The position numbers and the translations under genes are program-made. A DNA stretch of 32,029 bases, taken from IMG/VR virus record IMGVR_UViG_3300025362_000446, positions 1-32,029 of that record; one strand, written 5' to 3'. Below the pieces are notes generated by a model. The model was not told where the DNA came from. It saw only the letters and a list, made by a program, of their open reading frames with translations, and ran no database searches. Position 1 is the first letter of the stretch; every line of letters begins with the position of its first letter. This document shows positions 3,001 through 31,937 of the stretch, one piece after another. Origin of the DNA: a virus.

Positions 3001-5890
3001 CAAAACCTAATCTTGCAGCCCAATGATCTTTCCAGATTTGGCGAATCATTGTTTCGGTTAAATTATCTGCTAAAAGCTTTGCATGAGTAGTATCTAAAGA
3101 TCCCTGTATTTCATTTTTCACTCGTTCTTTAATTGATTCATTAGTAATTTGCAGCATTTGATCTTGGTATTTTTGACTTGCAAGAAGTTCATCACCTTGG
3201 TGTTTTTCCGCCGCTTTTATTAAAGCCTGTTCTTTAGAGATATATTCCTTTGCGATAGCTAATCCTTCAGCTTTTGCTTTTCTGTGTAGTGCTACTGATG
3301 CATCTTCTGTTTCTTCATATCCTTTTAGTGCTATTATAAATCTTTCATTAGATGCGCTTATTTCCGCAGCCGCTTTTTTTCTTAAACCATCATCAGAAAT
3401 TTGGCCAAGATACATGGCTAGTTCTTCACCTTGCGTTCTATTTATAGCATCTATTTTATCTAGATTTGATTGAGCATGTTTTGCGACTTTATCAGATGCA
3501 GCGATTTCATCTGCCGCAGCTTTTACAGTGGCTGCTGCTCTAGCAGCTATTGCTCCTTTGGTATCTTCTTTAAAGTCTTGACCTTCTTTGTCCTTCTGGA
3601 AATATCTAGGATCTTTAAGACGTTCTGCGTAGTGATCCATGGCTTCTTTTAGTGCAGCAAGCTCTTGAAGTTTTTTTGCAAAATACGGATCATCTTTTTC
3701 TTCATTAAACATAGCCATTTTGGTAGCTATAGTCTTGTTGACGGTTTCCATGGCTTTATTGACTGCTTTAAGATCCTCGACAAGTGCTAGATATGGTGCC
3801 GATGACTCCAAGATCATACTATTCAATATACCTTGAAATTCTGTCGATTCAGAGATCGTACCATTCAGCGCACTTTGAGACTCTGCTACCATTTCATTTA
3901 GCTCTGCTTCTATACTTTTTTCTTCATTAATTAGCCTTAGCTTTGGAAGGTATATGTCAAGGATTTGTTTTCCTTGCTCAAACTTTGCAAAATCTTGATC
4001 TTGCGTAAACCTATCTCTTGATTTATAATCAGCAAGTAGCCCAGAAATACCGTTCTCTTCCATTACAGCATTTAGTTCTGAGTAAAAGGCTTTAACTTCA
4101 GGCGTAATTTCTGCTATTGCAGCTTTGTACTCATCATGATATTCACTTGGAAATTCATCAAACACATCAGCAAGACCAAGATCAATCATGCGTAATCCGA
4201 CATTCTCTCCTCCATTAAATAGATCAGCTAGGTGTCTACCATAGTCATCTTTTGCCTTCAAGAATTCAGCTATTAGCTCCTCCCCCTCTTTAAGCCAATC
4301 TTCTAGAAACTTACTGGCAAGTTCGCCAATGAGAGTATTCTCATCAGCACCTTTTTTAGATTCTTGAGTATCTATTCCAGATATTCGTATTGGAATTGTA
4401 ATACCACCAGCCAACGCAGTTATTGTATCACCGTCAATAGTCCTGACTGTCTCTATCAATACGGCAACATCTTTGGTTGCTGAATCTGCAGCTTCTCCAA
4501 TAACATTAAAATAATCATCTATGGCTGTCGATGCTTTGCCAACCCATGTCATAGAATCTTGAACAAGCCAAGCGCCTGGAAGTATCGCCTTAAGAACATC
4601 TTCTTTTGTAACTTTAATGCCGAATTTTTTCAACCAATCTGATTCTGCTCCAGCCTTATCAATTGCTTTTCCAAGTTCAGCAAACAAATTTTTAGCATAA
4701 ATAGCCATTCCTGCAGTAACGCCAACTGTTGGATTTTTAGTCATCCATCCAACCGCCAGCCCACCAGCGATAGCGCTATTAAAGTTAGAGCTAGAGCCTA
4801 CACCGACTATACTTGCAAACTGATTATATGTTTTTAACAAAGAACCGATATGACGCATAGCTTCAAAAGCATTTTGTCCTAAGTTAATAAAAGCAGATCC
4901 AACTTCTAACACAGCATCTCCAAACTGTATCATTTCTGCTTCGTTGTTGCGTATCCATGAACTAGCATTGTCTAGTGCACTTCGCATCTTATCGCCATAT
5001 ATATCAAATATTTTATAATTTAACTCTGTCAAAACATTTATTATTTGGCTAACAGCATCATCAAGAGTTTTTATACTATTACTTGCACTTTTGTTTTTTT
5101 CAAAATTGCTATACAATGAAGAAATTGCCTGACCTACGCTTTTGCCTTTTTCGATCATATTGCTCATTGACTTAAGAGCATCCTTGGTAGACATTGTTGT
5201 TTCGCTTCCAAAACGTCTCGCAACTTTAATCAACATTTCATATTGAGCTGTTGTCATGTTAGTTTTTTGACTTAGGCCAGCCATAGTTTTCTCAAGGCCC
5301 ATTCCAACGCCAATTAAAGAACCAAGCCCACGTGCTATATTCTGGAATACAAAAAGGGAGGCAGCAATACCAGACATGGTAACGCTGAAACGAGCCCACG
5401 AACCATTCATTAATTCGCTAGATTTATTGACAGATCTCATTCTGGTATGAAGTTGACCGTAAGCATTATCAAGGTTTTTAGTATTGTTACGAAGCTTTTG
5501 TAGTTGCTTTATTAAATCGGTTGCATCTTTCTTGCTTAAGTTCCAAGCTTTAGCTGCTTGTTTACCAACCTTTTCTGCAGATTCACCATATTTATCCATA
5601 TACTTAATGGCAATTCTGACTTGATCATCAAGGTTTGCAACTTCACTAGCTGAACCTTTCATAGAGCTTTTTATAGTATCAGAGGCTTTCCTGCTCGCCG
5701 TTTCAACCTGCTTAAAATCATTACTAATTTTATCTATTTCGTTGCCTAGCCCTTTGAAAGCACTATTTTTTAATTTTGCAAATGCCTGATCAATTTGCTT
5801 GGCAACTGCATTTGAACGTTTCTCAAGCGCATCAAGTTGCTCTTCAGCAGCTTTTGTATCAAATATAATGTTTAGAGTTGCAGACGACAT
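1..5890 (-). CDS. Tail tape measure protein (3' end outside window)
   Basis: One minus-strand frame stays open from the ATG at 5890 to the left edge, at least 1963 codons with no stop, so the gene is truncated by the window. It lies directly after the gpG/gpGT chaperone pair, the standard place for a tape measure gene, and an AGAGG sits 9 bases before the start. The protein has the expected character: long charged helical stretches, then a Gly/Ala/Ser-rich hydrophobic part around residues 1215-1370 ending in a membrane-like segment (WAALVVAAYMAALMIV). Tape measure proteins set tail length and can help DNA cross the cell envelope. The oddity is a complete staphylococcal-nuclease-like domain at about residues 472-580, listed separately. 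Identity rests on length, composition and gene order rather than on a family motif. Confidence 0.9.
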   Translation of the reverse strand, partial: MSSATLNIIFDTKAAEEQLDALEKRSNAVAKQIDQAFAKLKNSAFKGLGNEIDKISNDFKQVETASRKASDTIKSSMKGSASEVANLDDQVRIAIKYMDKYGESAEKVGKQAAKAWNLSKKDATDLIKQLQKLRNNTKNLDNAYGQLHTRMRSVNKSSELMNGSWARFSVTMSGIAASLFVFQNIARGLGSLIGVGMGLEKTMAGLSQKTNMTTAQYEMLIKVARRFGSETTMSTKDALKSMSNMIEKGKSVGQAISSLYSNFEKNKSASNSIKTLDDAVSQIINVLTELNYKIFDIYGDKMRSALDNASSWIRNNEAEMIQFGDAVLEVGSAFINLGQNAFEAMRHIGSLLKTYNQFASIVGVGSSSNFNSAIAGGLAVGWMTKNPTVGVTAGMAIYAKNLFAELGKAIDKAGAESDWLKKFGIKVTKEDVLKAILPGAWLVQDSMTWVGKASTAIDDYFNVIGEAADSATKDVAVLIETVRTIDGDTITALAGGITIPIRISGIDTQESKKGADENTLIGELASKFLEDWLKEGEELIAEFLKAKDDYGRHLADLFNGGENVGLRMIDLGLADVFDEFPSEYHDEYKAAIAEITPEVKAFYSELNAVMEENGISGLLADYKSRDRFTQDQDFAKFEQGKQILDIYLPKLRLINEEKSIEAELNEMVAESQSALNGTISESTEFQGILNSMILESSAPYLALVEDLKAVNKAMETVNKTIATKMAMFNEEKDDPYFAKKLQELAALKEAMDHYAERLKDPRYFQKDKEGQDFKEDTKGAIAARAAATVKAAADEIAASDKVAKHAQSNLDKIDAINRTQGEELAMYLGQISDDGLRKKAAAEISASNERFIIALKGYEETEDASVALHRKAKAEGLAIAKEYISKEQALIKAAEKHQGDELLASQKYQDQMLQITNESIKERVKNEIQGSLDTTHAKLLADNLTETMIRQIWKDHWAARLGFAKKGVSGQAKLIIDANKGYEKAQKIIAKSGSGTPTGMAAIESHMQRYAAYLKTLISDKEKLLTLEEKEILMIVERESLEAPYRADKLQAMKSLYEDLEEISGNYFDGQMVLIAAEYNEYLKSFDLKAELYAQYTGKEKALFDSVIKWKKLKQRELVQDYMIANKGMAGGMIAYLMEMRTAWENYYQEIGQFGYDFMSSVGEAFEGSFVALFTEGTDAAKDVWAGFLDDMLESFLQMIASLMKQMILSGVLQLLASALGKDISFDSSGNAIISAGTGSVSGGSGGSISYSTLLSLAGAAYKAYAGEGFLTTLGGMLSSSAVSGAMAGYGASAAGYGSVMGSVAPQTMSAVYGSQSAAAYFGAQGAGTGAGAGASSGMGAAAAAAGWAALVVAAYMAALMIVANQDKPDASIQARGNVKIAEFQNKLFDIAITGISARGYSQGDAQKEGREMAEKLYDYFNMYEMIYQNVSIASQKKIKEGMGAIKWEDFTFTLIKIAQDYATPKLYVSGKVRPNYNLDPSGHRRSSIADARKQSGIPGSSGGAPAEVLNDLMGRYFEEYVEEALANIRGKDIFSIMSDEVLGAFDSLDKDMFINDPTAFFNNFSAAMKNMAKAELVWNDFNNWLDGTSDSMTNLEAAGILANSELEGYAAQMEALGKTLTQAELDAKFQDIFKGITDGITDLNADGTLSGLEQYLAAINGQFDAYLDLLKEYGVDLEKIEDLEGKRAKKLEEAAEEYIKIVTEALENAIESAINLIGELETTVSGLNSTFAGIIAGWAKDNPVRAIAATSIVKIYEEIEAAIVSKQEEISAIMEPFAEETALISGLLDDAKNGVNAEGLIAYFEKLKRIWSGEEGVNLDAMALSLSGSFAAAAAEMEREFRILQSLGLIHLSRYAQILGNTMQDFADNVPDMDITDMEVGLDKISDYIGNYRTAIENTLNDYSLDLSDEARLYLQDVLGYLDSLDAMITSFQSELASLSKATIREVAENAAGSFDGITDEL
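4150..4480 (-). other. Staphylococcal nuclease-like (SNase/TNase) domain inside the tape measure protein
   Basis: Residues about 472-580 of the tape measure protein match the OB-fold of staphylococcal nuclease. The core reads TIDGDT (484-489), then RISGIDTQES (502-511), then DYGRHLADLF. Against S. aureus nuclease numbering, D21 aligns with D488, R35 with R502, D40 with D507, T41 with T508, E43 with E510 and R87 with R552. The spacings D21-R35 (14) and R35-E43 (8) are identical, and E43-R87 is 42 here against 44. All calcium-binding and catalytic residues are therefore present. A C-terminal stretch resembling the family's EALVRQGLA helix follows (GLRMIDLGLADVF). That the domain is active is inferred from residue conservation. 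Confidence 0.85.
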
Positions 5891-14911: not shown

Positions 14912-15433
14912 ATGAAACCAAAGAAAACAAATAGGAATGATCGGCGCTTGCTTGCTATCATGGAGAAGAAACGGCTGCAACAACGAAACTTCGCCGGCTG
15001 CTTCGCTAAGACAGGTTTTAACGTAGCGAAGACATGTAGAATTATAGGTATAAGCAGGGGTACATATTTGCGATGGCTCAACACTGAAGAACGTTTTGCT
15101 GCCATGATTGAGAATTCCAAAGAGGAAAGGACTGATCTTGCCGAATCTATACTGTTGGCAAATATGCAGGACAACAATAAATTTGTATCTAATGCTGCGA
15201 CTATCTTTTATCTGAAGACACAAGGCAAGAAAAATGGTTGGAGCGAAAAACAAGAAATTGATATTAACGTTAACCAGAAGAGGTCTAAAGAAGAAATCGA
15301 TGCGATTGTAGCGGCAAGCATGGCTGCTGATAGTATTGTTATCGATGCAAAGGTTATGACACAGAAGAGATTGAGCAGCGGGGATGGTAATGGGGATGGC
15401 AGTAGCGGTGAAGAAAATGAGGTGTTTGAATAA
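14912..15433 (+). CDS. terS: Terminase small subunit
   Basis: A 173-residue protein that recognises phage DNA and loads the packaging motor. The start is the ATG at 14912 with GGGGAG 10 bases upstream. The longer frame begins at a TTG only about six bases after the likely transcription start and has no ribosome site. Residues about 28-65 form a helix-turn-helix of the homeodomain-like kind (FAKTGFNVAKTCRIIGISRGTYLRWL). A helical oligomerisation region follows, and the C-terminus is Gly/Ser/Glu-rich. The stop overlaps the large subunit start (TAATG), so the two are translationally coupled. The position directly before terL confirms the call. Confidence 0.88.
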   Translation: MKPKKTNRNDRRLLAIMEKKRLQQRNFAGCFAKTGFNVAKTCRIIGISRGTYLRWLNTEERFAAMIENSKEERTDLAESILLANMQDNNKFVSNAATIFYLKTQGKKNGWSEKQEIDINVNQKRSKEEIDAIVAASMAADSIVIDAKVMTQKRLSSGDGNGDGSSGEENEVFE

Positions 15434-17925
15434 TGGGGATTGGCAAAAAACCGAAGAAGGAACTATTGAAGGTTGAGGATTATGCTTTTGCCAAGTTACT
15501 ATCTTATGCTACATATCAGTGGCCAGATTATATCATTAGTAAGCATCATGCATATATTGCGAAATGTCTTGAAGCTGTTGAGACTGGTGATATAGAACGA
15601 TTAATCATAACAATCCCGCCAAGATATGGAAAAACCGTTTTAGCCTCAGAATATTTTAGCGCTTGGTTTTTGGGACGTAATCCATCCAAACAAATTATAT
15701 TTTGTACCTACTCACATGATCGAGCAGCCGATATTGGCAGGAAAGTAAGGAACCAGTTGCAAAGTCCGCAGTTTAAGAAAGTATTTCCTGAATGTAAGAT
15801 TTCAAGGGATACTCAAAGCGTTAGCAATGTCGGCACTGAAGCCGGTGGAAATTTCTTTGCAGTAGGACTTGGCGGACCAATCACAGGCCGCGGTGCGCAT
15901 TGCTTACCAGGAGATACAATAATAGAAACAGAAGTTGGAAGTATGAGGCTTGATAAACTGCTTGACAGTAATGAGTGTCCTATGGTACTATCATTGGGAG
16001 ATAACGGATTAGAGTATAATAAAATAATCGCATCCCAATCGAGGTACACAGATGAACTCTACACCATTGAAACAAGTTCAGGACGTAAAATTAGAGCAAC
16101 TGGAGAACACAGATTTTACATTCATGGACAAGGATACACGGCGACCAAAGACATATGCGAAGGCCAAAAACTCGTCTCACTCCCGCAGCAACAAGACATG
16201 CGAAATATGTGGAAAGGAAAAGACAGGACGCGGAGCTATGTGTCGAGCATGCTATACGGAATTAAGGAAAAATCTTGTGGACGTAGAATGTGCGTCTTGC
16301 GGGAAAATTTTTCAAAAGAAAGCTTACGATGTAAGGAAATCAATAAAACGTGGTTTCAAGAATTTTTATTGCAACGGATCGTGCAAAAACAAAAATTATT
16401 ACAAAAACAATCCAAACAAATGTACGATTTGTGGAGAACCGACCCCTCGCAAAACAATGAAAATGTGCTCAGAAGAATGTCGGAAAATAGCCAGAAAATC
16501 AAGAAAAAAATATGTATTAAAAATTTGTCAGAATTGCGAAATCCCTTTTACAACATCAATAACTTTACAAAGATACTGCACACGAAAATGTGCAGATTCA
16601 GCGCATTCATTCAGGATGAAAGGAAATGGGAATGCAAATTATCGACATGGAAGGGAATATCCAGTAGATTTCAAGAAAAAAAGAAAACTAGCAATACTGA
16701 GAGACAACAATCGTTGTGTAGTATGCCAAAAAAAACAAGAATTCCAAGAAATACTCAAAAAAGATGGATCGCTACATCAGATAAGAAACAATTTGTTGGT
16801 TCACCACATAGATCACGATTTGAACAACAACAAGTTAACAAATTTGATAACACTTTGCAAACCATGCCATACGATTCACCACAAATCGAAAGTGACACCG
16901 TTTCCATGGTTAAAAGAGTATGCGGAAAAAATGAGATAGTATACGATATACAGGTTGAAAAGACTGAGAATTTCTTTGCTAACGATATTTTAAGCCACAA
17001 TTGTCTAATTATCGATGATCCTATAAAAGGCCAAGAAGAAGCCAATTCAGACTTATTTAAGAGTAAGATGCAGGATTGGTATCAATCTACCGCATACACA
17101 CGTCTTATGCCAGGAAAATCAGGGATCGTAGTCATTCAAACACGCTGGAGCTGTGATGATCTTGCAGGGTGGCTGATCAAAGAACACGAAGACGAAGAAT
17201 GGTATGTTTTAAATCTTCCAGCAGAAGCTGTCGAAGATGATCCGCTAGGCCGAGAAATCGGCGAACCATTGTGGCCAGAAATGTATGATGCCGAAAGACT
17301 TCAACGCATTAAAAAAGCCGTCGGCGTTCAAACTTGGAATTCGCTGTTCCAAGGTAACCCAGTCGGCCGTGAGGGTAGCATAGTAAAATACGAATGGTTA
17401 AAATACTATGATAGGCCGCCTGAAAAATTCAAACGTATAGTGCAAAGCTGGGATACAGCGTTCAAGGCTAAACAGCTTAATGATCCAAGCGTATGCATTA
17501 CATTCGGCGAAACAGATAATAATTTTTTCGTACTCGATGTATTCTGTCAGCGTCTAGAGTATCCCGATCTACGCAAGGCGGCCATTTCTCTTTTTAATCT
17601 ACACAGCGCTAATACTGTAATCATAGAAGACAAAGGATCCGGACAGAGCCTCATTCAAGATCTCAACCGTAGCACACAAATGCCAATCATACCGATAAAA
17701 GCGGAGCTAGACAAGGTGACTCGATTGTCTTCCGTTACTGGCACAATGGAAGCCGGTAAATTCTGGTTACCAAAACAAGCGTCATGGCTTTCAGATTATG
17801 TAGCTGAATTAACATCTGTACCATATTCAAAACATGATGATATGGCTGATGCGACAAGCCAATATTTGCGATACGCGCAAAAACCAAAATATGTATCTGG
17901 ATTAAATTCAAGATACTGGAAATAA
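15433..17925 (+). CDS. terL: Terminase large subunit with embedded intein
   Basis: An 830-residue precursor. After removal of the 367-residue intein (157-523) a 463-residue terminase remains, a normal size. The N-terminal ATPase has a Walker A segment PPRYGKT (62-68), a downstream IIFCTYS coupling-type strand and Walker B CLIIDDP, whose Cys (524) is the first residue after the intein. The C-terminal RNase H-like nuclease shows the acidic triad in SWDTA, VIIEDKGSG and HDDMADA. The enzyme cuts concatemers and pumps DNA through the portal. The intein sits just upstream of Walker B, so without splicing the motor cannot work. The reading frame runs unbroken through the intein even where the nested HNH gene occupies the +1 frame. 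Confidence 0.93.
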   Translation: MGIGKKPKKELLKVEDYAFAKLLSYATYQWPDYIISKHHAYIAKCLEAVETGDIERLIITIPPRYGKTVLASEYFSAWFLGRNPSKQIIFCTYSHDRAADIGRKVRNQLQSPQFKKVFPECKISRDTQSVSNVGTEAGGNFFAVGLGGPITGRGAHCLPGDTIIETEVGSMRLDKLLDSNECPMVLSLGDNGLEYNKIIASQSRYTDELYTIETSSGRKIRATGEHRFYIHGQGYTATKDICEGQKLVSLPQQQDMRNMWKGKDRTRSYVSSMLYGIKEKSCGRRMCVLRENFSKESLRCKEINKTWFQEFLLQRIVQKQKLLQKQSKQMYDLWRTDPSQNNENVLRRMSENSQKIKKKICIKNLSELRNPFYNINNFTKILHTKMCRFSAFIQDERKWECKLSTWKGISSRFQEKKKTSNTERQQSLCSMPKKTRIPRNTQKRWIATSDKKQFVGSPHRSRFEQQQVNKFDNTLQTMPYDSPQIESDTVSMVKRVCGKNEIVYDIQVEKTENFFANDILSHNCLIIDDPIKGQEEANSDLFKSKMQDWYQSTAYTRLMPGKSGIVVIQTRWSCDDLAGWLIKEHEDEEWYVLNLPAEAVEDDPLGREIGEPLWPEMYDAERLQRIKKAVGVQTWNSLFQGNPVGREGSIVKYEWLKYYDRPPEKFKRIVQSWDTAFKAKQLNDPSVCITFGETDNNFFVLDVFCQRLEYPDLRKAAISLFNLHSANTVIIEDKGSGQSLIQDLNRSTQMPIIPIKAELDKVTRLSSVTGTMEAGKFWLPKQASWLSDYVAELTSVPYSKHDDMADATSQYLRYAQKPKYVSGLNSRYWK
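16041..16054 (+). promoter_or_regulatory. Internal ribosome binding site for the nested HNH gene
   Basis: GAGG (16041-16044), seven bases, then ATG (16052-16054), all inside the intein coding sequence. This gives the nested frame an independent start signal. The only other in-frame start before the first zinc finger is the ATG at 16124, whose nearest GGAG is 18 bases away. Confidence 0.6.
16052..16939 (+). CDS. HNH homing-type endonuclease nested out of frame inside the intein
   Basis: A 295-codon frame, shifted +1 from the terminase and contained entirely in the intein. From about residue 50 it is rich in paired cysteines (CEIC, CRAC, CASC, CTIC, CSEEC, CQNC, CTRKC), a series of zinc-binding ribbons. 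A GNGNANYRHG motif (191-200), common before phage HNH domains, follows. The nuclease core has CVVC (222-225), LVHHIDHDLNNNKLTNLITL (249-268) and CKPCHTIHH (269-277), a textbook HNH fold with zinc cysteines. The first 45 residues overlap the splicing block B and look like shadow coding, so the functional protein may begin later. It presumably cuts intein-free terminase genes and promotes spread of the intein. The stop (16937-16939) lies just before block F. Confidence 0.85.
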   Translation: MNSTPLKQVQDVKLEQLENTDFTFMDKDTRRPKTYAKAKNSSHSRSNKTCEICGKEKTGRGAMCRACYTELRKNLVDVECASCGKIFQKKAYDVRKSIKRGFKNFYCNGSCKNKNYYKNNPNKCTICGEPTPRKTMKMCSEECRKIARKSRKKYVLKICQNCEIPFTTSITLQRYCTRKCADSAHSFRMKGNGNANYRHGREYPVDFKKKRKLAILRDNNRCVVCQKKQEFQEILKKDGSLHQIRNNLLVHHIDHDLNNNKLTNLITLCKPCHTIHHKSKVTPFPWLKEYAEKMR

Positions 17926-19545: not shown

Positions 19546-20037
19546 CTACACCCCGGTATGACCAAAACCACCAAGACCACGATCTGTATCAATGTTGACA
19601 GCTTCTACTGTTTCTAGCGTTACAACCGGTAACTTGTTAACAACCGCTTGCGCAATTCTCATTCCAGGTTTAATCCTAAATATGCTACAGCATAATCCAC
19701 GATCAACCCATTCGCCTACCATATGTCCTATGATTTTTATCTCTGCCCTAAATCCATAATCAATACTTCCAGGACTATTTGTAATAGTAAATCCACGCTT
19801 TAGAGCTAACCCAGATCTAGGTCTAATTTGAATCTCATAACCAAATGGAATTTCGACGCAAATGCCTGTTGGAATTAACGCACGCCTTCCGTTCGGTCGA
19901 AGAATTAAATCTTCAGGTATCGCAGCACGTAAATCAAAACCAGCATCACCATCCTTTGCATAAGAAAGTTCATCCCAATCTTTATCGTAATGATCTAAGT
20001 ATTGAATCTTTATGATGCAATCAGATTTACTCTGCAC
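19546..20037 (-). CDS. dut: dUTPase (deoxyuridine triphosphate nucleotidohydrolase)
   Basis: A 163-residue trimeric-type dUTPase that converts dUTP to dUMP and pyrophosphate, keeping uracil out of phage DNA. The five motifs are visible in order: GDAGFDLRA, RPRSGLALK, GSIDYGFRAEI with the catalytic Asp, GMRIAQAVV and RGLGGFGHTG for the C-terminal arm. Translation starts at a GTG (20037) with GGAGGAG six bases upstream, overlapping the previous gene by 11 bases. It is the last gene of the minus-strand accessory operon and is not related in function to the glycan genes before it. Confidence 0.93.
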   Translation of the reverse strand: MQSKSDCIIKIQYLDHYDKDWDELSYAKDGDAGFDLRAAIPEDLILRPNGRRALIPTGICVEIPFGYEIQIRPRSGLALKRGFTITNSPGSIDYGFRAEIKIIGHMVGEWVDRGLCCSIFRIKPGMRIAQAVVNKLPVVTLETVEAVNIDTDRGLGGFGHTGV

Positions 20038-20869
20038 CTAAATCTCCTCCGTCAGTATTGCCAAATGTCAACCTACGCATTGATTCATCAAGCCAAATAC
20101 GAGTAACGACAATATTAATAAGCTCTTTGGCTTCTTCGTTTGTTTCCGGTTCAAGCCAAATAATAGCATTATCTTTAAATTCTTTATCCCAAAGCGCAAG
20201 ATAGTCAGTAAATATTGGAGGACTAGATTTAACGTCTTCTAATATAAAGGATGGAAGTTCATTTTTATATGCAATCCTCATCGCACGTTTATTCGGGTTC
20301 TCATGAAGCGGTAGGTATTTCTTCCAATCAAGCATCATAAATGGCATGCAAACCTCAACACCAAAATGTCTATGCAATATATTGTATGTACTTTGTATGT
20401 AAACTATACTATCCGCCCATGCTTCCAGATAGGATTTTTCAGCATATCCACCAAATATTTCATCAGCACCCTCACCAACAAAAATTTTGCTACATCCTTC
20501 CATTTTTGCAACATTCGCCATGAAATATGGCCAAATATTAAATCTTGGTTTCGGAAGAATGCTCATTATTTCTGGAAGTTCATCATAGATACCATCAATA
20601 CGTACAAGAACAATGTCAACATCATAATAATCAGCCATTTTAAGCTGCAATGCACACTCATTATTCCTTAAACCAAAGTCTGCAGCAAATATAATCACAC
20701 GGGTTCCATAAATTCTTGAAAGAAATACGACAGTATCAAGTATAATTGCTGAATCTATTCCGCCAGATAGATATACTCCTACTGTTTCAGTTGTTCCAAG
20801 ACAATTACGCGTATTTGCTATTATTTCATTTCTAATTATCTCTGGTCCATGTTCCTTGAAAATATTCAT
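20027..20869 (-). CDS. Asparagine-synthase-like PP-loop amidotransferase (synthetase domain only)
   Basis: A 280-residue protein with the PP-loop LSGGIDS (34-40) that binds ATP and the asparagine synthetase signature GEGADEIFGGY (132-142). It therefore adenylates a carboxylate and transfers an amino group. The N-terminal glutaminase domain of AsnB is missing: there is no Cys2 nucleophile and the protein begins shortly before the PP-loop. Ammonia must come free or from a partner. Related proteins in O-antigen clusters amidate uronic acids, and the same operon holds uronate-sugar genes, so a sugar carboxylate is the likely substrate (inference). The gene starts 3 bases after the stop of the radical SAM gene, implying coupled translation. 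Amidation of a peptide or tRNA-linked substrate is an alternative. Confidence 0.85.
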   Translation of the reverse strand: MNIFKEHGPEIIRNEIIANTRNCLGTTETVGVYLSGGIDSAIILDTVVFLSRIYGTRVIIFAADFGLRNNECALQLKMADYYDVDIVLVRIDGIYDELPEIMSILPKPRFNIWPYFMANVAKMEGCSKIFVGEGADEIFGGYAEKSYLEAWADSIVYIQSTYNILHRHFGVEVCMPFMMLDWKKYLPLHENPNKRAMRIAYKNELPSFILEDVKSSPPIFTDYLALWDKEFKDNAIIWLEPETNEEAKELINIVVTRIWLDESMRRLTFGNTDGGDLGAE

Positions 20870-20872
20870 AAG

Positions 20873-21667
20873 CTATACGTTCTCCTTGTCCATTTTTTTT
20901 GTACTACCTAAAGTAGCACCAGCCCATTGATCGCATTTTGAGCATATTTCATCTGGGTAATCATCACGAATTTTTTTATACTCAGCACTATTCCAAACTT
21001 CTTCGATTGTGTTATCTCTAACATTCATAGGTTTATCTCCATCCCAGTTGTAACAACACCTCGATACATTACCTTGGTAGTCTATTACGATCTCGTTAAG
21101 CAGCCTATCGCAAAAGACTCTTTTGCCAACTTTAGCATCTGATGCACCGAAAACACCATCAACTGAATGTTTTTTGTATACTCTAATAGTATCAGCATAT
21201 GGTCCGGCTAGCTCATAAATGTCTTCATCATAACGTTCACCTTCGACGACTGATGCTTGTAACACAGGTTTGTTACGACGCCAGTTTCTTCTCGACTGCC
21301 ACATCTCCTCTAAAAATACTAGAGACCTTGGTTCGTGACAGCTAATATTTATAAAATCAGCTTTCAGAAAGCTTCCACCAACACGTGATGCAATAACTCC
21401 GTTAGTTGCAATGTGTATTTCTTTAACCCTTTCTCTTGCATAAGACATCATAGACATAAATCGTGAATGAATAGCGCTTTCACCTCGCCAAAATGGTAAC
21501 AATGTAACATTATGACCAGCTATATCGTCCATAACCTTGTACCACAATTCAATATCCATATCACCTACTGGGTCTGTCATGTAGTATCGTGGACACATCA
21601 AGCATTTTAAATTACAACGATTCGACATTTCTACCGTAACTCGTTTCGGATAACCATTCTCTTTCAT
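20873..21667 (-). CDS. Radical SAM protein with SPASM-like C-terminal cysteines
   Basis: A 264-residue enzyme. The start is the ATG at 21667, with AAGGAG 10 bases upstream; the longer frame overlaps the previous gene by 62 bases. C18, C22 and C25 in RCNLKCLMC form the CX3CX2C site for a [4Fe-4S] cluster that cleaves S-adenosylmethionine. The C-terminal part has further cysteines (VFCDRL, SRCCYNWDG, ICSKCDQW) in a SPASM-like arrangement that would hold an additional cluster. Members modify peptides, sugars or nucleotide cofactors, and the substrate cannot be read from sequence. It stands between the glycosyltransferase and the AsnB-like gene, both overlapping or nearly so, which suggests one pathway. 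Oxygen-sensitive clusters would suit a host living at least partly without oxygen. Confidence 0.85.
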   Translation of the reverse strand: MKENGYPKRVTVEMSNRCNLKCLMCPRYYMTDPVGDMDIELWYKVMDDIAGHNVTLLPFWRGESAIHSRFMSMMSYARERVKEIHIATNGVIASRVGGSFLKADFINISCHEPRSLVFLEEMWQSRRNWRRNKPVLQASVVEGERYDEDIYELAGPYADTIRVYKKHSVDGVFGASDAKVGKRVFCDRLLNEIVIDYQGNVSRCCYNWDGDKPMNVRDNTIEEVWNSAEYKKIRDDYPDEICSKCDQWAGATLGSTKKMDKENV

Positions 21668-21671
21668 GTCT

Positions 21672-22748
21672 TCACATCTCCTTAAGGTTGATAAAAAATT
21701 CATCTGATTCAATAATTCTATTTCCGTTAACAATTAGATCGTAAAGATATGTCCATTGTTGAATGGCTATTTTCGGATCGCAATTTTCAGTAACCCATTT
21801 ACGACCGGCGATACCAATGTCTAATATGCTATCTTTATCTGATAGCAATTTTCGCAGTTTCTCTTCTAACGTATTTTCCGTTACAGAAATTACCGGATGA
21901 CGCGGAAAGACTGATTGAACGATATTACTTACAGAACAAAGAACCGCATGTCCCATTGCCATAGATTCTATCGCGCTTAATGCAAATCGGCCAACGGAAA
22001 TTTGATCGAACAAAATATGACACATCATCTTACGATTAAGACATTCTTTATTGGATAGGCCTTCGAGTAGTACGAGCTCTATCTTGAAATCTTTTTTTAG
22101 CTTATCGATAACGCTAATAAAGAAGTCTGTTTTTTTGAATTCACGGTTAGTTGGGGAGTGAGCAATCCGAATTGTGTCCATTTCCATGCTCATGGCGCTA
22201 TTTTTATACCACGGTGTAATACTATTGACATCAAATATGTCTGGCAAATGGTAATGCATAAATCCGGAACCATCCTGCATTGTCCAATCAACCCATGTGA
22301 CAGCATGGATACCGCTATCGTCATGAAACTTTTTCAGAATACCTTTATTCTGCCTAAGGTGTGAGCCAAAATACTGGAAAACGCAGTTGTTTTTATTGAG
22401 AATTTCATTAAATTTTATATTACCAAAATTGACTGCTAGCCTACCAATGTGGAAAAAATCTGCATTATTGATAATCTTAGACGCTTCATCCATTGATTCT
22501 TTTGATGGTTCACCTCCAGACACAGGCATAATAACAATGTCGCTATCATAATCTAAATAATCACCAACTACAATGATACACCTAGCCTTATGTATAGTGT
22601 ATTTGTTTATTAGCTTGGCAATTAGCGTTAGGTTACCTGCAATGTCATAATCGCCAAATACGCAAATATTCATACCTGTTTTCTTATGAACATCTTCAGG
22701 CAAAACATGTTTAAGAAACGGAAGATCTCTTGCTGTAGTTTTACCCAT
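21672..22748 (-). CDS. Glycosyltransferase, GT-B type (family 4-like)
   Basis: A 358-residue protein. Start at the ATG (22748) that overlaps the stop of the small membrane protein gene (TAATG), with AGGGG nine bases before. The first half is divergent, with a Rossmann-like opening NICVFGDYDIAGNLTLIAKLI. The second half has the GT-B donor-binding pattern: RIAHSPTNREFKKTDFFISVIDKL, a strand IELVLLEGLSN, then the ISVGRFALSAIESMAMGHAVLCS stretch where the conserved Glu (in SAIESMAMG) contacts the nucleotide sugar. It most likely transfers a sugar made or modified by neighbouring enzymes onto a glycan or protein. No membrane segment is present. Confidence 0.78.
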   Translation of the reverse strand: MGKTTARDLPFLKHVLPEDVHKKTGMNICVFGDYDIAGNLTLIAKLINKYTIHKARCIIVVGDYLDYDSDIVIMPVSGGEPSKESMDEASKIINNADFFHIGRLAVNFGNIKFNEILNKNNCVFQYFGSHLRQNKGILKKFHDDSGIHAVTWVDWTMQDGSGFMHYHLPDIFDVNSITPWYKNSAMSMEMDTIRIAHSPTNREFKKTDFFISVIDKLKKDFKIELVLLEGLSNKECLNRKMMCHILFDQISVGRFALSAIESMAMGHAVLCSVSNIVQSVFPRHPVISVTENTLEEKLRKLLSDKDSILDIGIAGRKWVTENCDPKIAIQQWTYLYDLIVNGNRIIESDEFFINLKEM

Positions 22749-26634: not shown

Positions 26635-27393
26635 TTGAAAGCTCCAGAAGACTTCAAAACGGATATTAATCCTAGTGGTGACACAATAACCTTCCATGAT
26701 AGAGATCATACTTACATTACAGGTAACGGGATTAGACTTACTAGTGTCACTACCTTTATTAGTAGCTACTTTCCTAAGTTTGATTCTCAGCGTATCTCTG
26801 CTATCTATGCCAAAAAACACGACATGACACAGAAAGATGTCCTTAAGATGTGGCACGAAAAAGGCTATCATGCTTCTCGCCTTGGTACAGCTGTGCATAA
26901 TTACTGCGAAGGTATTATGACAGGTACAGATATCCCGTATGAAAAAGAGCATAAAGATAAAGAAAGATTCGAGGCATTACTTAAGACTTCCGATACAGCA
27001 TGTGCTGCGTTAAAGGAAAAGTTCGAGTTAGTTACTGCTGAAAAGATTGTATTCTCTGTCGATCTTGGATTAGCCGGACAGGTTGATCTGATTATGCGAA
27101 ATCCAAAGAATGGTAATATTCTAGTGCTGGACTGGAAAACTAACGAGAAAATAGAAGACAGTAATTTCTGGAGAAATGCCTCCAGCCCACTATGCCATTT
27201 GTCAGATTGCAACAAAGCTAAGTATGATTTGCAATTGTCCGTGTACAAGCATCTGCTAGTTCAAGAGGGATATTTTCCTGATGCTAATAATTACAGCATG
27301 ATGCTGATACATTTAAAGCAAAACAATATTGATTGGTTAAAAGTAGAAAATGTTTATGGTGAAGATGTTATGGCAATGTTGGAATTCTTGTAA
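26635..27393 (+). CDS. PD-(D/E)XK nuclease (RecB/Cas4-like exonuclease)
   Basis: The 252-residue product starts at a TTG (26635) with AGAGGA eight bases upstream. The frame is open to 26539, but that stretch is the hairpin and encodes an unlikely hydrophobic leader. The nuclease core has GTAVHNYCEG with the helix His, LAGQVDLIM with the metal-binding Asp, ILVLDWKTN with Asp-X-Lys, and YDLQLSVYKHLL with the closing Gln-X3-Tyr motif. Together these define the RecB-like family. It probably degrades DNA ends to single strands for the Sak4/SSB recombination pair, or processes concatemers. Its stop overlaps the next start (TAATG). Confidence 0.83.
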   Translation: MKAPEDFKTDINPSGDTITFHDRDHTYITGNGIRLTSVTTFISSYFPKFDSQRISAIYAKKHDMTQKDVLKMWHEKGYHASRLGTAVHNYCEGIMTGTDIPYEKEHKDKERFEALLKTSDTACAALKEKFELVTAEKIVFSVDLGLAGQVDLIMRNPKNGNILVLDWKTNEKIEDSNFWRNASSPLCHLSDCNKAKYDLQLSVYKHLLVQEGYFPDANNYSMMLIHLKQNNIDWLKVENVYGEDVMAMLEFL

Positions 27394-28022
27394 TGGATAT
27401 TGGAATTGTGGATAAAGAATTAACTAAAATATGTTTAAAATGTAAAGAATTAAAACCACTGTTGGAATTCTGCAAAAACAAAGCATCCAAAGATGGGATA
27501 AACGGTACATGCAAAGCGTGTAGCAAAAAACACAGAGAAGAAAACAAAGAAAAAGAAGCTGCTAGATGTAAAAGATATAGAGAAAAAAACAAAGAAAAAG
27601 AAGCTGCTAGACGTAAAAGATATTACAAAGAAAACAAAGAAAAAGAAGCTGCTAACAATAAAAGATATAGAGAAACAGATAGTGGAAAAATCGCTGAGCA
27701 TACCAGCAGAGTAAGACGACGGTTAAGATTATTTGAAGCATCATCAATTCTTGAGAGAATAAATCCAGAAGAAATTCTTAAGCGAGACGGATACAGATGT
27801 CAGCTATGCGGTAAAAAAACTAAAGCAAAATATAAAGATAATAAATATCACGCTTTAAGAAGCAATATTGATCACATCGTACCGCTGGCGTTAGGCGGAG
27901 AACATACCGCTAAAAATTTACAATGCTTATGCGCCAGGTGCAATTTAGAAAAAGGATATACTGGAAAAGGCGACCAATTACTTCTGTTCAGCATTTATGA
28001 AAATAACCAAAGGAACATATAA
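27393..28022 (+). CDS. HNH endonuclease with internal Lys/Glu repeat
   Basis: A 209-residue protein in three parts. Residues 13-48 form a zinc-binding region (CLKCKELKPLLEF, then CKACSKKH). Residues about 51-95 are three charged repeats of 15 residues, NKEKEAAR.KRY. Residues 125-200 are an HNH nuclease with CQLCGKKT, IDHIVPLALGGEHTAKNLQ and CARCNLEKG. It overlaps the nuclease gene before and the methyltransferase after by one base each, so all three are translated together. It might be a homing-type nuclease that inserted cleanly, a packaging-associated nuclease, or the cutting partner of the methyltransferase. The sequence does not decide between these. Confidence 0.83.
   Translation: MDIGIVDKELTKICLKCKELKPLLEFCKNKASKDGINGTCKACSKKHREENKEKEAARCKRYREKNKEKEAARRKRYYKENKEKEAANNKRYRETDSGKIAEHTSRVRRRLRLFEASSILERINPEEILKRDGYRCQLCGKKTKAKYKDNKYHALRSNIDHIVPLALGGEHTAKNLQCLCARCNLEKGYTGKGDQLLLFSIYENNQRNI
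27543..27677 (+). repeat. Three tandem 45-base repeats inside the HNH gene
   Basis: Units begin at 27543, 27588 and 27633, each starting AACAAAGAAAAAGAAGCTGC and ending in a KRY-coding triplet group. The period of 45 is a multiple of three, so copy-number changes would keep the frame. The encoded helix is strongly charged. Confidence 0.85.
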
Positions 28023-29125
28023 TGACTGTAAATAACAACACATCAGCTACATATTTTTCAACAACACTAGGTAATCTTTACCATGGCGATTGCTTAAACA
28101 TAATGAAGGAAATTCCAGACGATACAATCGATAGCATCATTACCGATCCACCATATGCTTTAAATTTCATGGGTAAAGGCTGGGATAAAGTTTTGCCAAC
28201 AATTGAAATATGGAAAGAGTGTCTGAGAATTGCAAAACCTGGTGCAATAATATTAGCATTTGGAGGAACAAGAACTTATCACAGATTATGTTGTGATATC
28301 GAAGACGCAGGATGGAAAATAAAAGATTGCATCATGTGGATATATGGAAGCGGCTTCCCAAAAGGTACAGATATTTCTAAGGCGATCGATAAGCTCTCAG
28401 GAACAAACAGAAAAATAATTGGAAAAGGTAAAGGCAGAACAGGAAAAGCGGCTCAACCAAATGGATCGTCTTTCAGCGATGATAGCTATCAATGGCCAGG
28501 TGTTTACAATATTACAGAACCAAGCACAGACGAAGCAAAGCAATTCAGTGGATATAGCACATGCCTAAAACCAGCGTATGAGCCAATAATTATGGCAATT
28601 AAACCGTCTGATGGTACATACGCAGAAAATGCAATTGAACATAGCGTTGCCGGAATGAATATTGATGGGTGTAGAATTCCGATACTCAATGGAGAAACAC
28701 CGAAAGGAAGTGGTAACAGGAAGGGCGGTGGAAACACTTATGGGCTTAAGGATTGGATCTCTGAAAATGGTGGAAATATAACTCCTGATGAAGGTCGTTT
28801 TCCGACAAATATAATCCACGATGGATCTGATGAAATTGTTAACTTGTTTCCAGACGCAAAAGCAAGATTTTTCTACTGCGCTAAAGCTTCAAAATCTGAA
28901 CGTGGTGCATTCAACAACCATCCAACAGTAAAGCCATTATCTCTTATTAAATATTTATGCACCTTAACCATGCCTCCGAACAAAGGTATCGTATTAGATC
29001 CATTTCTTGGATCTGGAACAACTGCAATGGCATGCGAACAATTAAATCGAAAATGGATAGGAGTAGAACTTGACGTTAAAAATTGCGACATAGCGATTCA
29101 AAGACTATCAATACCTACAGTATAA
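28022..29125 (+). CDS. DNA methyltransferase (N6-adenine/N4-cytosine type)
   Basis: A 367-residue enzyme with catalytic motif IV TDPPY (41-45) near the N-terminus and S-adenosylmethionine motif I VLDPFLGSGTT near the C-terminus, the order of beta-class enzymes. The preceding LYHGDCLNIMKEIP is motif III-like, and HPTVKPLSLIKYL is the usual segment before motif I. DPPY favours adenine as the target, though N4-cytosine cannot be excluded. A central region (130-280) with Gly/Asn-rich loops would carry the recognition domain. It probably protects phage DNA from host restriction. Its ATG overlaps the HNH stop (TAATG). Confidence 0.9.
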   Translation: MTVNNNTSATYFSTTLGNLYHGDCLNIMKEIPDDTIDSIITDPPYALNFMGKGWDKVLPTIEIWKECLRIAKPGAIILAFGGTRTYHRLCCDIEDAGWKIKDCIMWIYGSGFPKGTDISKAIDKLSGTNRKIIGKGKGRTGKAAQPNGSSFSDDSYQWPGVYNITEPSTDEAKQFSGYSTCLKPAYEPIIMAIKPSDGTYAENAIEHSVAGMNIDGCRIPILNGETPKGSGNRKGGGNTYGLKDWISENGGNITPDEGRFPTNIIHDGSDEIVNLFPDAKARFFYCAKASKSERGAFNNHPTVKPLSLIKYLCTLTMPPNKGIVLDPFLGSGTTAMACEQLNRKWIGVELDVKNCDIAIQRLSIPTV

Positions 29126-29531: not shown

Positions 29532-29752
29532 AGCTAGAAATTGCAAAATTATGCAGTGAATGCGATGAAATATTTGTTGGAACATTTTGTCCTAAGTGTG
29601 GATACACTCATTCGATGCCAGTATCGCAATGGATACCAAGTCAAATTGTCAAATCAATGCAACGCTCTCAAGCACTTCAAACTTATCGACCAGCACAAAT
29701 GACAACCGCCGAAATAAATCAACAGGAGATAAATTTTGTCCGCGGCGATTGA
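29528..29752 (+). CDS. Small zinc-ribbon protein, 74 residues
   Basis: The protein has LCSECDEIFVGTFCPKCGYTH, two CX2C pairs 10 residues apart, at the N-terminus. The rest is Gln/Ser/Thr-rich, with RSQALQTYRPAQ and a short acidic end. It overlaps the membrane protein before (ATGA) and the helicase N-terminal gene after (17 bases). The function is not recognised. It may assist the RecD2-like proteins it is coupled to (inference). Confidence 0.7.
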   Translation: MKLEIAKLCSECDEIFVGTFCPKCGYTHSMPVSQWIPSQIVKSMQRSQALQTYRPAQMTTAEINQQEINFVRGD

Positions 29753-30626
29753 GATGCTTGAGTGCGATCTGCACAGAGTGCGATTCCAAGGTGATAGAGG
29801 ATTCCTTATAGGCGTTTTTAAAATTCCAAAAGCAGGAGATGTTGCTGCTCTTGGCGATTTAATAAACCCACAAGTCGGCGCAAGATATAAGCTACACGGC
29901 AAATGGGTACACGACAATAAATGGGGAAGACAGTTTAAATTCAAACGATATGAAAAGATGGAGCCTCAAGATGAAGCCGGTATATACCGCTACATTGTAC
30001 ATACTGCTAAGTGGGTAGGCCCAGCTATTGGTAAACAGCTTATCAAACTGTACAGCGAAGAAACGCTCCAGGTCTTAAGAGAAGACCCAGAACGTGTTGC
30101 CGAAGAAGTACGTGGAATTACAAAGAAACGAGCCGGCGATATACAACGAATGCTACTTGAAAATCAATCAATAGAAACACTATTGGTAGAACTTGAAGCT
30201 CTTGTTGGCGGACTCGGACTAAGAAAATCATTGCCAACGGAAATTGCATTAAAGTGGAAATCTGATGCAATATCCCTTCTCAAGAAAAATCCATACATAC
30301 TTTGTAAGCTTGAAAATGTAGGTTTCCTAACTGCTGACCGAATTGCAATGGAACGATTGAAAATTGAAAAAGACTCATTCAATCGTAAGGTTGCAGCCAT
30401 TCATTATATTATTTCAAAAAATGAAAAGAACGGCAGCGTATGGATTGAAGTGATAGACCTGCGTCAACAAGTTGAACTATTGGTTGGATGTGATGTTCGT
30501 GATGCTATTACAGAACTTGTAAAGAGAGATTTAGCACTTGATAATAGAAATTTTGTTGCAACAAAGTCAGCTGCCAGAGATGAGACCTATATAGCTGATA
30601 AACTTAAAAAGATGATCAGGCGATAG
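29736..30626 (+). CDS. RecD2-like helicase, N-terminal half as a separate protein
   Basis: Starts at a TTG (29736) with AGGAG seven bases upstream. The 296-residue product matches the regions that precede the motor in RecD2. These are a strand-rich OB-like part (CDLHRVRFQGDRGFLIGVF, YKLHGKWVHDNKWGRQFKFKRYE), helix-hairpin-helix DNA-binding segments (YIVHTAKWVGPAIGKQLIKLY; VRGITKKRAGDI) and a NPYILCKLENVGFLTADRIA repeat. It ends with a helix that normally leads into the helicase. The motor is encoded by a second gene 108 bases on, in the same frame but separated by several stops. The two proteins probably work as a complex. Confidence 0.78.
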   Translation: MSAAIEMLECDLHRVRFQGDRGFLIGVFKIPKAGDVAALGDLINPQVGARYKLHGKWVHDNKWGRQFKFKRYEKMEPQDEAGIYRYIVHTAKWVGPAIGKQLIKLYSEETLQVLREDPERVAEEVRGITKKRAGDIQRMLLENQSIETLLVELEALVGGLGLRKSLPTEIALKWKSDAISLLKKNPYILCKLENVGFLTADRIAMERLKIEKDSFNRKVAAIHYIISKNEKNGSVWIEVIDLRQQVELLVGCDVRDAITELVKRDLALDNRNFVATKSAARDETYIADKLKKMIRR

Positions 30627-30734: not shown

Positions 30735-31937
30735 ATGCATACTCTAACGTCGGAACAAGAGCAAGCAGTAGAAATTATAAAGAATAATAATGTTTCGATT
30801 CTTACTGGAGCACCAGGAGTTGGAAAAACATTTCTAGCTAAACGCGTAATAGATCAACACATCAAACGTGGCTACAAGATAGCTTTATGTGCTCCATCTG
30901 GAAAAGCAGCCCGTAGATTATCGCAAAGCACAGGGAGAGGTGCTTCTACAATCCATAGCATGTTGCAGGCAAGAATGGTTAGAGATGAATTTGTATTCAG
31001 CTACTGCGAAAACAATCAGATGGATATTGACATGATTGTGGTAGATGAGTCAAGCATGTTGGACTCCCCTTTGATGGCAAGTCTAATGCATGCCGTAAGT
31101 CCAAAGACTAAACTTCTTTTCATAGGCGACGATTCGCAATTACCACCAGTTGGAATGGGATGTGTATTCAGAGACATGATAGCGTCTGGTGTTATACCAG
31201 TTGCAGAATTAACAGAGATACAGCGTAATTCAGGACAAATAGTACGTGCATGTCATAAAATTAAAGATGGAAAATCATACACTCCATCAAAAATAATAGA
31301 TATTGAAGCAGGAATAAATCTTGTACATGTAGAATGTTCCAGCCCACATAAAATAGTTCAATTTATAGATCGTATTGTAACAGAAAAAATGGTAGAACGT
31401 GGCTATGATCCAATATGGGATGTTCAAGTTTTAAGCCCAACAAACAAACGAACTATCATGAGTTGTGATTCTATTAACAAAGCACTCCAGGCTAAGCTAA
31501 ATCCAAACAAAGTGAATGACGTAACAGGATTTGGAATTGGGGACAAGGTAATAAATACAAAGAATACAACATATAGCGATGGTAATTATGTAGCAAATGG
31601 AGACCTTGGAACAATTATAGGCTACGAAAAAAACGAATTACTTGTAGAATTTACAGACCCTGATCGTGAAATAACAATGAAGGCAACAAATAATAAACTG
31701 CTTCATGCTTACTGTTGTACAACACATCGTTATCAAGGAAGTGAAGTACCTGTTGTTGTAATACCTGTTCATTCATCCTTTAACTTTTTTGTTACTAGAC
31801 CGTGGATATATACTGCCATCTCAAGGGCTCAACATATCTGCATAACAGTCGGTGAATTTTCCGCTATAGAATCTGCAATTGCTAAGGAAGGTTCTGATCA
31901 TAGACTAACGAGGTTACAAGAGCGACTTGTCATCTAA
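30735..31937 (+). CDS. RecD2-like helicase, motor half
   Basis: A 400-residue superfamily 1 helicase motor. Motifs in order: Q-like LTSEQEQAV (4-12), Walker A GAPGVGKT (25-32), motif Ia CAPSGKAARRLS, motif II VVDESSM, motif III GDDSQLPPVG, motif IV-like VQVLSPTN, motif V CCTTHRYQGSE and motif VI YTAISRAQ. The closeness of CAPSGKAA and HRYQGSE to RecD marks it as RecD2 type, a 5' to 3' helicase. The usual N-terminal region is absent and is instead encoded by the preceding gene. ACTGGGG lies seven bases before the ATG. The end overlaps the next frame. Confidence 0.9.
   Translation: MHTLTSEQEQAVEIIKNNNVSILTGAPGVGKTFLAKRVIDQHIKRGYKIALCAPSGKAARRLSQSTGRGASTIHSMLQARMVRDEFVFSYCENNQMDIDMIVVDESSMLDSPLMASLMHAVSPKTKLLFIGDDSQLPPVGMGCVFRDMIASGVIPVAELTEIQRNSGQIVRACHKIKDGKSYTPSKIIDIEAGINLVHVECSSPHKIVQFIDRIVTEKMVERGYDPIWDVQVLSPTNKRTIMSCDSINKALQAKLNPNKVNDVTGFGIGDKVINTKNTTYSDGNYVANGDLGTIIGYEKNELLVEFTDPDREITMKATNNKLLHAYCCTTHRYQGSEVPVVVIPVHSSFNFFVTRPWIYTAISRAQHICITVGEFSAIESAIAKEGSDHRLTRLQERLVI

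Follow-up and report, generated by a model that had tools for sequence, protein, structure and literature searches.

A terminase intein that probably carries its homing endonuclease as a separate gene in the +1 frame

Large inteins that carry a homing endonuclease in frame are well described and include TerL inteins of mycobacteriophages (Kelley et al. 2016, PMC5050341). The same study reports that the Walker B intein TerL1-e of Gaia splices. An out-of-frame HNH, the ShiLan domain, is known from phage DNA methylases (Arsenault, Gosselin, Gogarten 2025, PMC11855218); Mantra is one of the ShiLan phages of that study. Fractured genes with split inteins and free-standing endonucleases are reported to exist as well (Dassa et al. 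2009). In addition, phage group I introns carry HNH ORFs such as I-HmuI.

The window, a stretch of 32,029 nucleotides (IMG/VR virus record IMGVR_UViG_3300025362_000446), contains a gene for a terminase large subunit on the plus strand (terL, 15433–17925). The gene is a single open frame of 830 codons in which matches to Terminase_6N/6C and PHROG 38 flank an insert. This insert, an intein of 367 amino acids in the terL frame (C157–N523, 15901–17001, plus strand), matches PF14890 (Pfam Intein_splicing, E = 5.4e-17) and is located directly upstream of the Walker B motif CLIIDDP of TerL. Its N-terminal splicing half (15901–16185, plus strand) comprises block A (CLPGDT) with Cys1 and block B (TGEH, 16099–16110). 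The C-terminal splicing half (16939–17001, plus strand) comprises block F (VYDIQVEKTENFFAND) and block G (ILSHN) and is followed by Cys+1 at 17002. The two halves are connected by a linker in the intein frame (16186–16938, plus strand) that is free of stop codons and has no recognizable domain. Across 50 homologues Cys1, the TxxH motif and the terminal His-Asn-Cys are invariant in the intein frame, in all sequences or nearly so.

AlphaFold2 predicts a HINT fold for the window intein, with pLDDT values of about 95–98 in the N-terminal half and 91–97 in the C-terminal half. The linker is modeled with low confidence (pLDDT 41–64). The best structural matches of the HINT model are the DnaB, VMA and RecA inteins. 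Thus, the insert meets the criteria of an intein, namely the splicing blocks and a HINT fold, the latter predicted by the model; protein splicing itself is inferred. The criterion of a canonical homing intein, an endonuclease domain in the intein frame, is not met at this site. Alternatively, the insert might be a group I intron that carries a nuclease ORF; phage introns do frequently harbor an HNH ORF in a different frame. However, there is no Rfam match up to E = 1, no stop codon interrupts the terL frame, the complete set of splicing blocks is present and the HINT fold is predicted with high confidence, which leaves practically no room for an intron in place of the intein.

Within the intein, an HNH endonuclease ORF of 295 codons is located in the +1 frame of terL (16052–16939, plus strand; PHROG 1271 HNH endonuclease, E = 6e-29). 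Its ATG lies in the N-terminal half of the intein, upstream of block B, and is preceded at a distance of 7 nt by a Shine-Dalgarno-like GAGG (16041–16044, plus strand). Its stop codon TGA (16937–16939) reaches into the first codon of block F (VYDIQVE, from 16939). The HNH core, R217-N..C-x2-C...VHHIDH...N...L..C-x2-CH...HH, spans 16700–16888 (plus strand); H251, H252, N264, C269, C272, H273 and H277 are invariant among 44 relatives. A putative zinc-binding region with Cys pairs from C50 to C180 (16199–16591, plus strand) shows invariant Cys columns and weak zinc-ribbon matches. In the original prediction, made from the sequence alone, the out-of-frame position of the ORF within an open terminase frame, the GAGG seven bases before the ATG, the stop just before block F and the complete HNH core were all described correctly. 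The number of Cys pairs was not: about ten C-x2/3-C pairs are present instead of seven.

Residues 42–295 of the HNH protein are predicted by AlphaFold2 mostly with pLDDT values of 88–98. The first 41 residues, encoded by DNA shared with the block B region, are modeled with low confidence. The Pfam HNH model scores 16.3 bits on the window copy, below the cutoff of 21.4 bits, and two relatives (P0003 and L030) exceed the cutoff. A Foldseek search with the model of the HNH protein gave weak matches to HNH nucleases, the best with E = 0.011. The ORF thus meets the criterion of an HNH protein, an HNH motif together with structural Cys pairs, and DNA cleavage is inferred.

Two more IMG/VR contigs match the terL gene of the window with 0 mismatches. 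Searching with the HNH protein by tblastn found three annotated phage records, which represent two genomes, Synechococcus phage S-EIVl and Gordonia phage Clown. In both phages the match lies inside terL, where an intein occupies the same terminase site and the HNH is in its +1 frame. A sequencing or assembly frameshift is ruled out, since three assemblies are identical over terL and the layout recurs in unrelated phages. Scanning viral contigs with a profile yielded about 80 loci with a G+C content of about 32% to 66%. The closer relatives are nearly all in the +1 frame inside a long open terL frame, whereas in distant free-standing HNH relatives the corresponding frame is full of stops. The +1 layout is also present in metagenome-assembled genome (MAG) contigs of Planctomycetaceae, Armatimonadetes and Polaromonas.

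From all sources, 129 distinct inteins were found at the Walker B site of TerL. The HNH is in the +1 frame in 121 of these and absent in eight; it is in frame in 0/129 and in the +2 frame in 0/129. The count of 121 refers to recognizable HNH sequence, and some of these copies are remnants only. As a control for search bias, searches were also made in the host frame, first with whole inteins and then with the C-terminal splicing block and terminase only. Of the 126 rows from the scans seeded with the C-terminal block and terminase, 112 have the HNH in +1, none in frame and none in +2, two are truncated and 12 have no HNH. Several of these 12 are same-site mini-inteins and four are another protein. 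The tally pools two scans, and some contigs are present in both. Neither HNH-seeded, intein-seeded nor C-block-only queries found an in-frame HNH homologue at this site. That the search method detects in-frame HNH sequences is shown by the one found in the intein of a radical SAM protein from an Omnitrophota MAG (L093). The query profiles were built from +1 elements and more distant layouts could therefore escape. Compensating indels or homologues with an in-frame HNH would have refuted the original prediction; neither was found. In the same-site inteins of homologues the +1 HNH frame is conserved, with a faster-evolving linker in close pairs.

Escherichia phage BUCT618 (L350:1003–3372) has a TerL intein at the same site with a long in-frame linker and no recognized domain. 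The linker is unrelated and no HNH match was found in any forward frame of this intein. Likewise, the TerL1-e intein of Gaia gave no +1 HNH match. HNH and TerL distances correlate moderately (r = 0.50), which is compatible with some exchange; no tree was built.

The avoidance of stop codons was assessed by shuffling synonymous codons within each HNH region, so that the HNH protein and the codon usage remained fixed. For the HNH ORF of the window there are 0 stops in the intein frame compared with 18.9 expected, and 0 of 2000 shuffles reach 0; the third frame contains 26 stops (20.5 expected). This test replaces an earlier estimate, based on equal codon use, that the frame would be open by chance with a probability of about 1e-5. 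For 30 non-redundant copies the intein frame contains 0 stops versus 389 expected (minimum of 2000 shuffles, 337), and the third frame shows no depletion. Over all 121 HNH regions there is one stop versus about 1165 expected. A chance open frame resulting from A-richness is ruled out by the synonymous-codon shuffles and by the GC-rich copies. In free-standing relatives, the frame equivalent to that of the intein contains 12.8 stops per 100 codons and the other frame 4.9; the corresponding values for nested copies are 0.004 and 5.8. Thus, the nested genes keep clean the very frame that is otherwise richer in stops.

Differences between related pairs pile up at codon position 3 of the HNH frame. 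In close pairs the identity of the HNH protein exceeds that of the linker (0.93 versus 0.77 and 0.90 versus 0.70). The large majority of differences restricted to position 3 are silent in the HNH frame yet alter a linker residue, although the pairs are not independent. These substitution patterns show that the HNH frame is under purifying selection. Together with the invariant residues and the structure models, they lead to the inference that the HNH frame is the selected product and that the linker is probably constrained by little beyond having to remain readable and free of stops. One alternative regards the HNH frame as a relic that is not translated and attributes the double frame to base composition or compensating frameshifts. 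The presence of decayed family members would be in line with this. On the other hand, the copies span a G+C range of about 32% to 66% with a single intein-frame stop among the HNH regions, HNH-silent substitutions dominate, catalytic residues are invariant and three assemblies agree over terL. A relic is therefore very improbable, and a selected HNH product remains the preferred interpretation.

The HNH protein would be translated by internal initiation at the ATG inside the N-terminal half of the intein. An ATG before the first Cys pair is present in 106 of 115 copies (105 of 230 control frames). An ATG preceded by a Shine-Dalgarno sequence is found in 31 of 115 copies (12 of 230 control frames), so that such codons are about five times more common in the HNH frame than in the other two frames across the family. 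With a clear Shine-Dalgarno sequence before an in-frame ATG in only 31 of 115 copies, initiation is not uniform. Alternatively, the nuclease could be produced by a programmed +1 frameshift, without internal initiation, and would then be fused to the N-terminus of TerL and the N-terminal half of the intein. In favor of this, the frame is +1 in every copy, and the open stretch of the HNH frame extends upstream of its start codon by anything from a few codons to some tens. The distribution of ATGs and Shine-Dalgarno sequences argues against it, as does a stop codon in the HNH frame of the window (16025–16027), only eight codons upstream of the ATG. Furthermore, no conserved slippery sequence was noticed on reading by eye, without a systematic search. 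A frameshift is thus considered unlikely and internal initiation is favored.

TerL alleles without an intein reach 95% amino acid identity to the TerL of S-EIVl. Without its intein, S-EIVl TerL has 509 residues, which is exactly the length of the intein-free alleles and confirms the intein borders in this group. The two residues past the insertion site are VC in the closest empty alleles, whereas splicing would leave CL; this difference would be expected of an element that supplies Cys+1 itself. No intein-free close relatives of the terL gene of the window itself were found, and the S-EIVl group was used instead. Intein-free alleles were judged by the length of the uninterrupted match; a count by ORF length (27/80) was too strict. 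About seventeen copies have short HNH matches, some of them cut by contig ends. In four copies (L062, L064, L174 and L180) most of the HNH is deleted and the frame of terL and intein is still open. Empty alleles, mini-inteins and copies with short HNH matches are consistent with a cycle of gain, decay and loss. The criterion of a homing endonuclease, a sporadic distribution with empty and decayed alleles, is met; cutting at the insertion site is inferred.

This distribution also bears on a different function. In some phages, packaging involves an HNH protein whose gene lies close to that of the terminase (HK97 gp74). The location in terL might suggest that the nested HNH is likewise produced and maintained by selection to assist the terminase in packaging, and not for homing. 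Against this, the distribution is sporadic, with mini-inteins, decayed HNH copies and intein-free terminases closely related to that of S-EIVl, and an HNH of the same family is found out of frame in a methylase. A packaging role is thus unlikely, and homing by the nested nuclease is the probable function, although this is an inference without cutting data.

Taken together, the window most likely contains a dual-coding mobile intein, with a probability of about 0.82; splicing, internal initiation, translation, cutting and homing are inferred. Dual coding itself is nearly certain on comparative evidence. The analysis shows that both frames exist and are conserved, that stops are avoided in the intein frame and that the HNH frame is under selection; it also documents alleles without the intein and inteins in which the HNH is missing or decayed. 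In the proposed mechanism, the terminase frame would be read straight through to give a TerL precursor with a HINT intein and a long, probably disordered linker. The intein would excise itself from its position immediately upstream of the Walker B motif and restore the ATPase. The homing endonuclease would not be a domain of the intein but a separate HNH/zinc-finger protein, encoded one base ahead. It would cut terL in co-infecting phages that lack the intein, and repair of the break would then place a copy of the entire intein, nested gene included, at the cut site.

The idea that one stretch encodes both a linker to be spliced out and a separate nuclease had been part of the original prediction and is strongly supported by the 121 distinct +1 inteins, the stop avoidance and the purifying selection, while splicing and separate translation remain inferred. 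The further proposal that a free-standing HNH gene invaded a mini-intein fits the same-site mini-inteins and the free-standing relatives, but the event would be an old one common to the whole family and not specific to this genome, and its direction is not proved. In a bolder reading that also appears likely, these phage inteins form a widespread and old family whose homing nuclease is encoded by a gene of its own, which lies in the +1 frame and overlaps the splicing element completely. The endonuclease would be strongly selected and the linker would be held by almost nothing except the absence of stop codons.

Several other loci were observed. A +1 nested HNH is present in a host protein of different appearance (L060:3025–5472 and L061), where the insert precedes the motif CDESAKIS, resembling another Walker B site. 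These loci may possibly represent a second host lineage of the same element. On a contig of Woesearchaeota (L096:3240–4817), an HNH ORF (3956–4519) lies in the +2 frame inside an open DNA methylase frame of 526 codons. This arrangement is ShiLan-like and found outside phages of Mycobacterium. In the window, the stop codon of a free-standing endonuclease VII/HNH gene (27393–28022) overlaps the beginning of a gene for a DNA methylase (28022–29125). A hidden HNH in this methylase, suspected from a gap in the PHROG alignment, is absent. Two adjacent ORFs (29736–30626 and 30735–31937) match residues 39–306 and 330–736 of one PHROG exonuclease V family, and the gene thus seems to be in two pieces. 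The region 19546–22748 (minus strand) encodes an asparagine-synthase-like protein (recognized by eye), a radical SAM match and ORFs without an assignment. These genes oppose terL and its downstream gene and are unusual cargo for such a position.

A homing intein is usually one polypeptide that splices and cuts, whereas here two proteins from overlapping frames would share these tasks. Separate proteins would remove the structural coupling of splicing and cutting and put a coding constraint in its place. As a natural experiment on overlapping genes, the family offers over a hundred copies, a wide range of G+C content, free-standing controls and decayed copies, and codon choice in nested copies visibly bends to hold the second frame open. 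Domain searches in frame miss mobile endonucleases of this kind inside inteins. If the interpretation is correct, inteins scored as lacking an endonuclease may conceal one in another frame, and the ShiLan domain of methylases would be one among several arrangements with a hidden HNH.

Canonical TerL inteins resemble the element of the window in that a HINT domain interrupts a conserved ATPase motif of TerL and the endonuclease is located between blocks B and F. In canonical large inteins, however, the endonuclease is within the same polypeptide. The radical SAM intein of the Omnitrophota MAG likewise has its HNH between the splicing halves, but in frame. In the split inteins of the Dassa type the endonuclease is a polypeptide separate from the intein, as proposed for the window; there, the endonuclease gene sits between the two parts of a split intein, whereas the intein of the window is continuous and the genes overlap. 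Introns of the I-HmuI type share the separately translated HNH nested in a self-removing element, but splicing occurs at the RNA level and the host frame does not need to stay open. An intein with an out-of-frame endonuclease was not reported in the full-text literature searched, most subscription journals being outside its scope. Most likely, the layout is as yet undescribed for inteins and represents a variant of homing inteins. The closest precedent is ShiLan, a hidden HNH without an intein. As in the window, the HNH is out of frame and lies in an insertion that does not interrupt the reading frame of the host gene. The ShiLan insertion has no splicing domains and is thought to be retained in the protein, its host is a methylase and its HNH uses the third frame; in the family described here, a bona fide intein would provide removal, the host is terL and the HNH is always in +1. 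The HNH of Clown is related to sequence inside the methylases of Mantra and Totinger (35% identity over 125 residues, E = 8e-7). The same nuclease family has thus come to be encoded out of frame within a host gene on at least two occasions and in different frames, one with a splicing element and one without.
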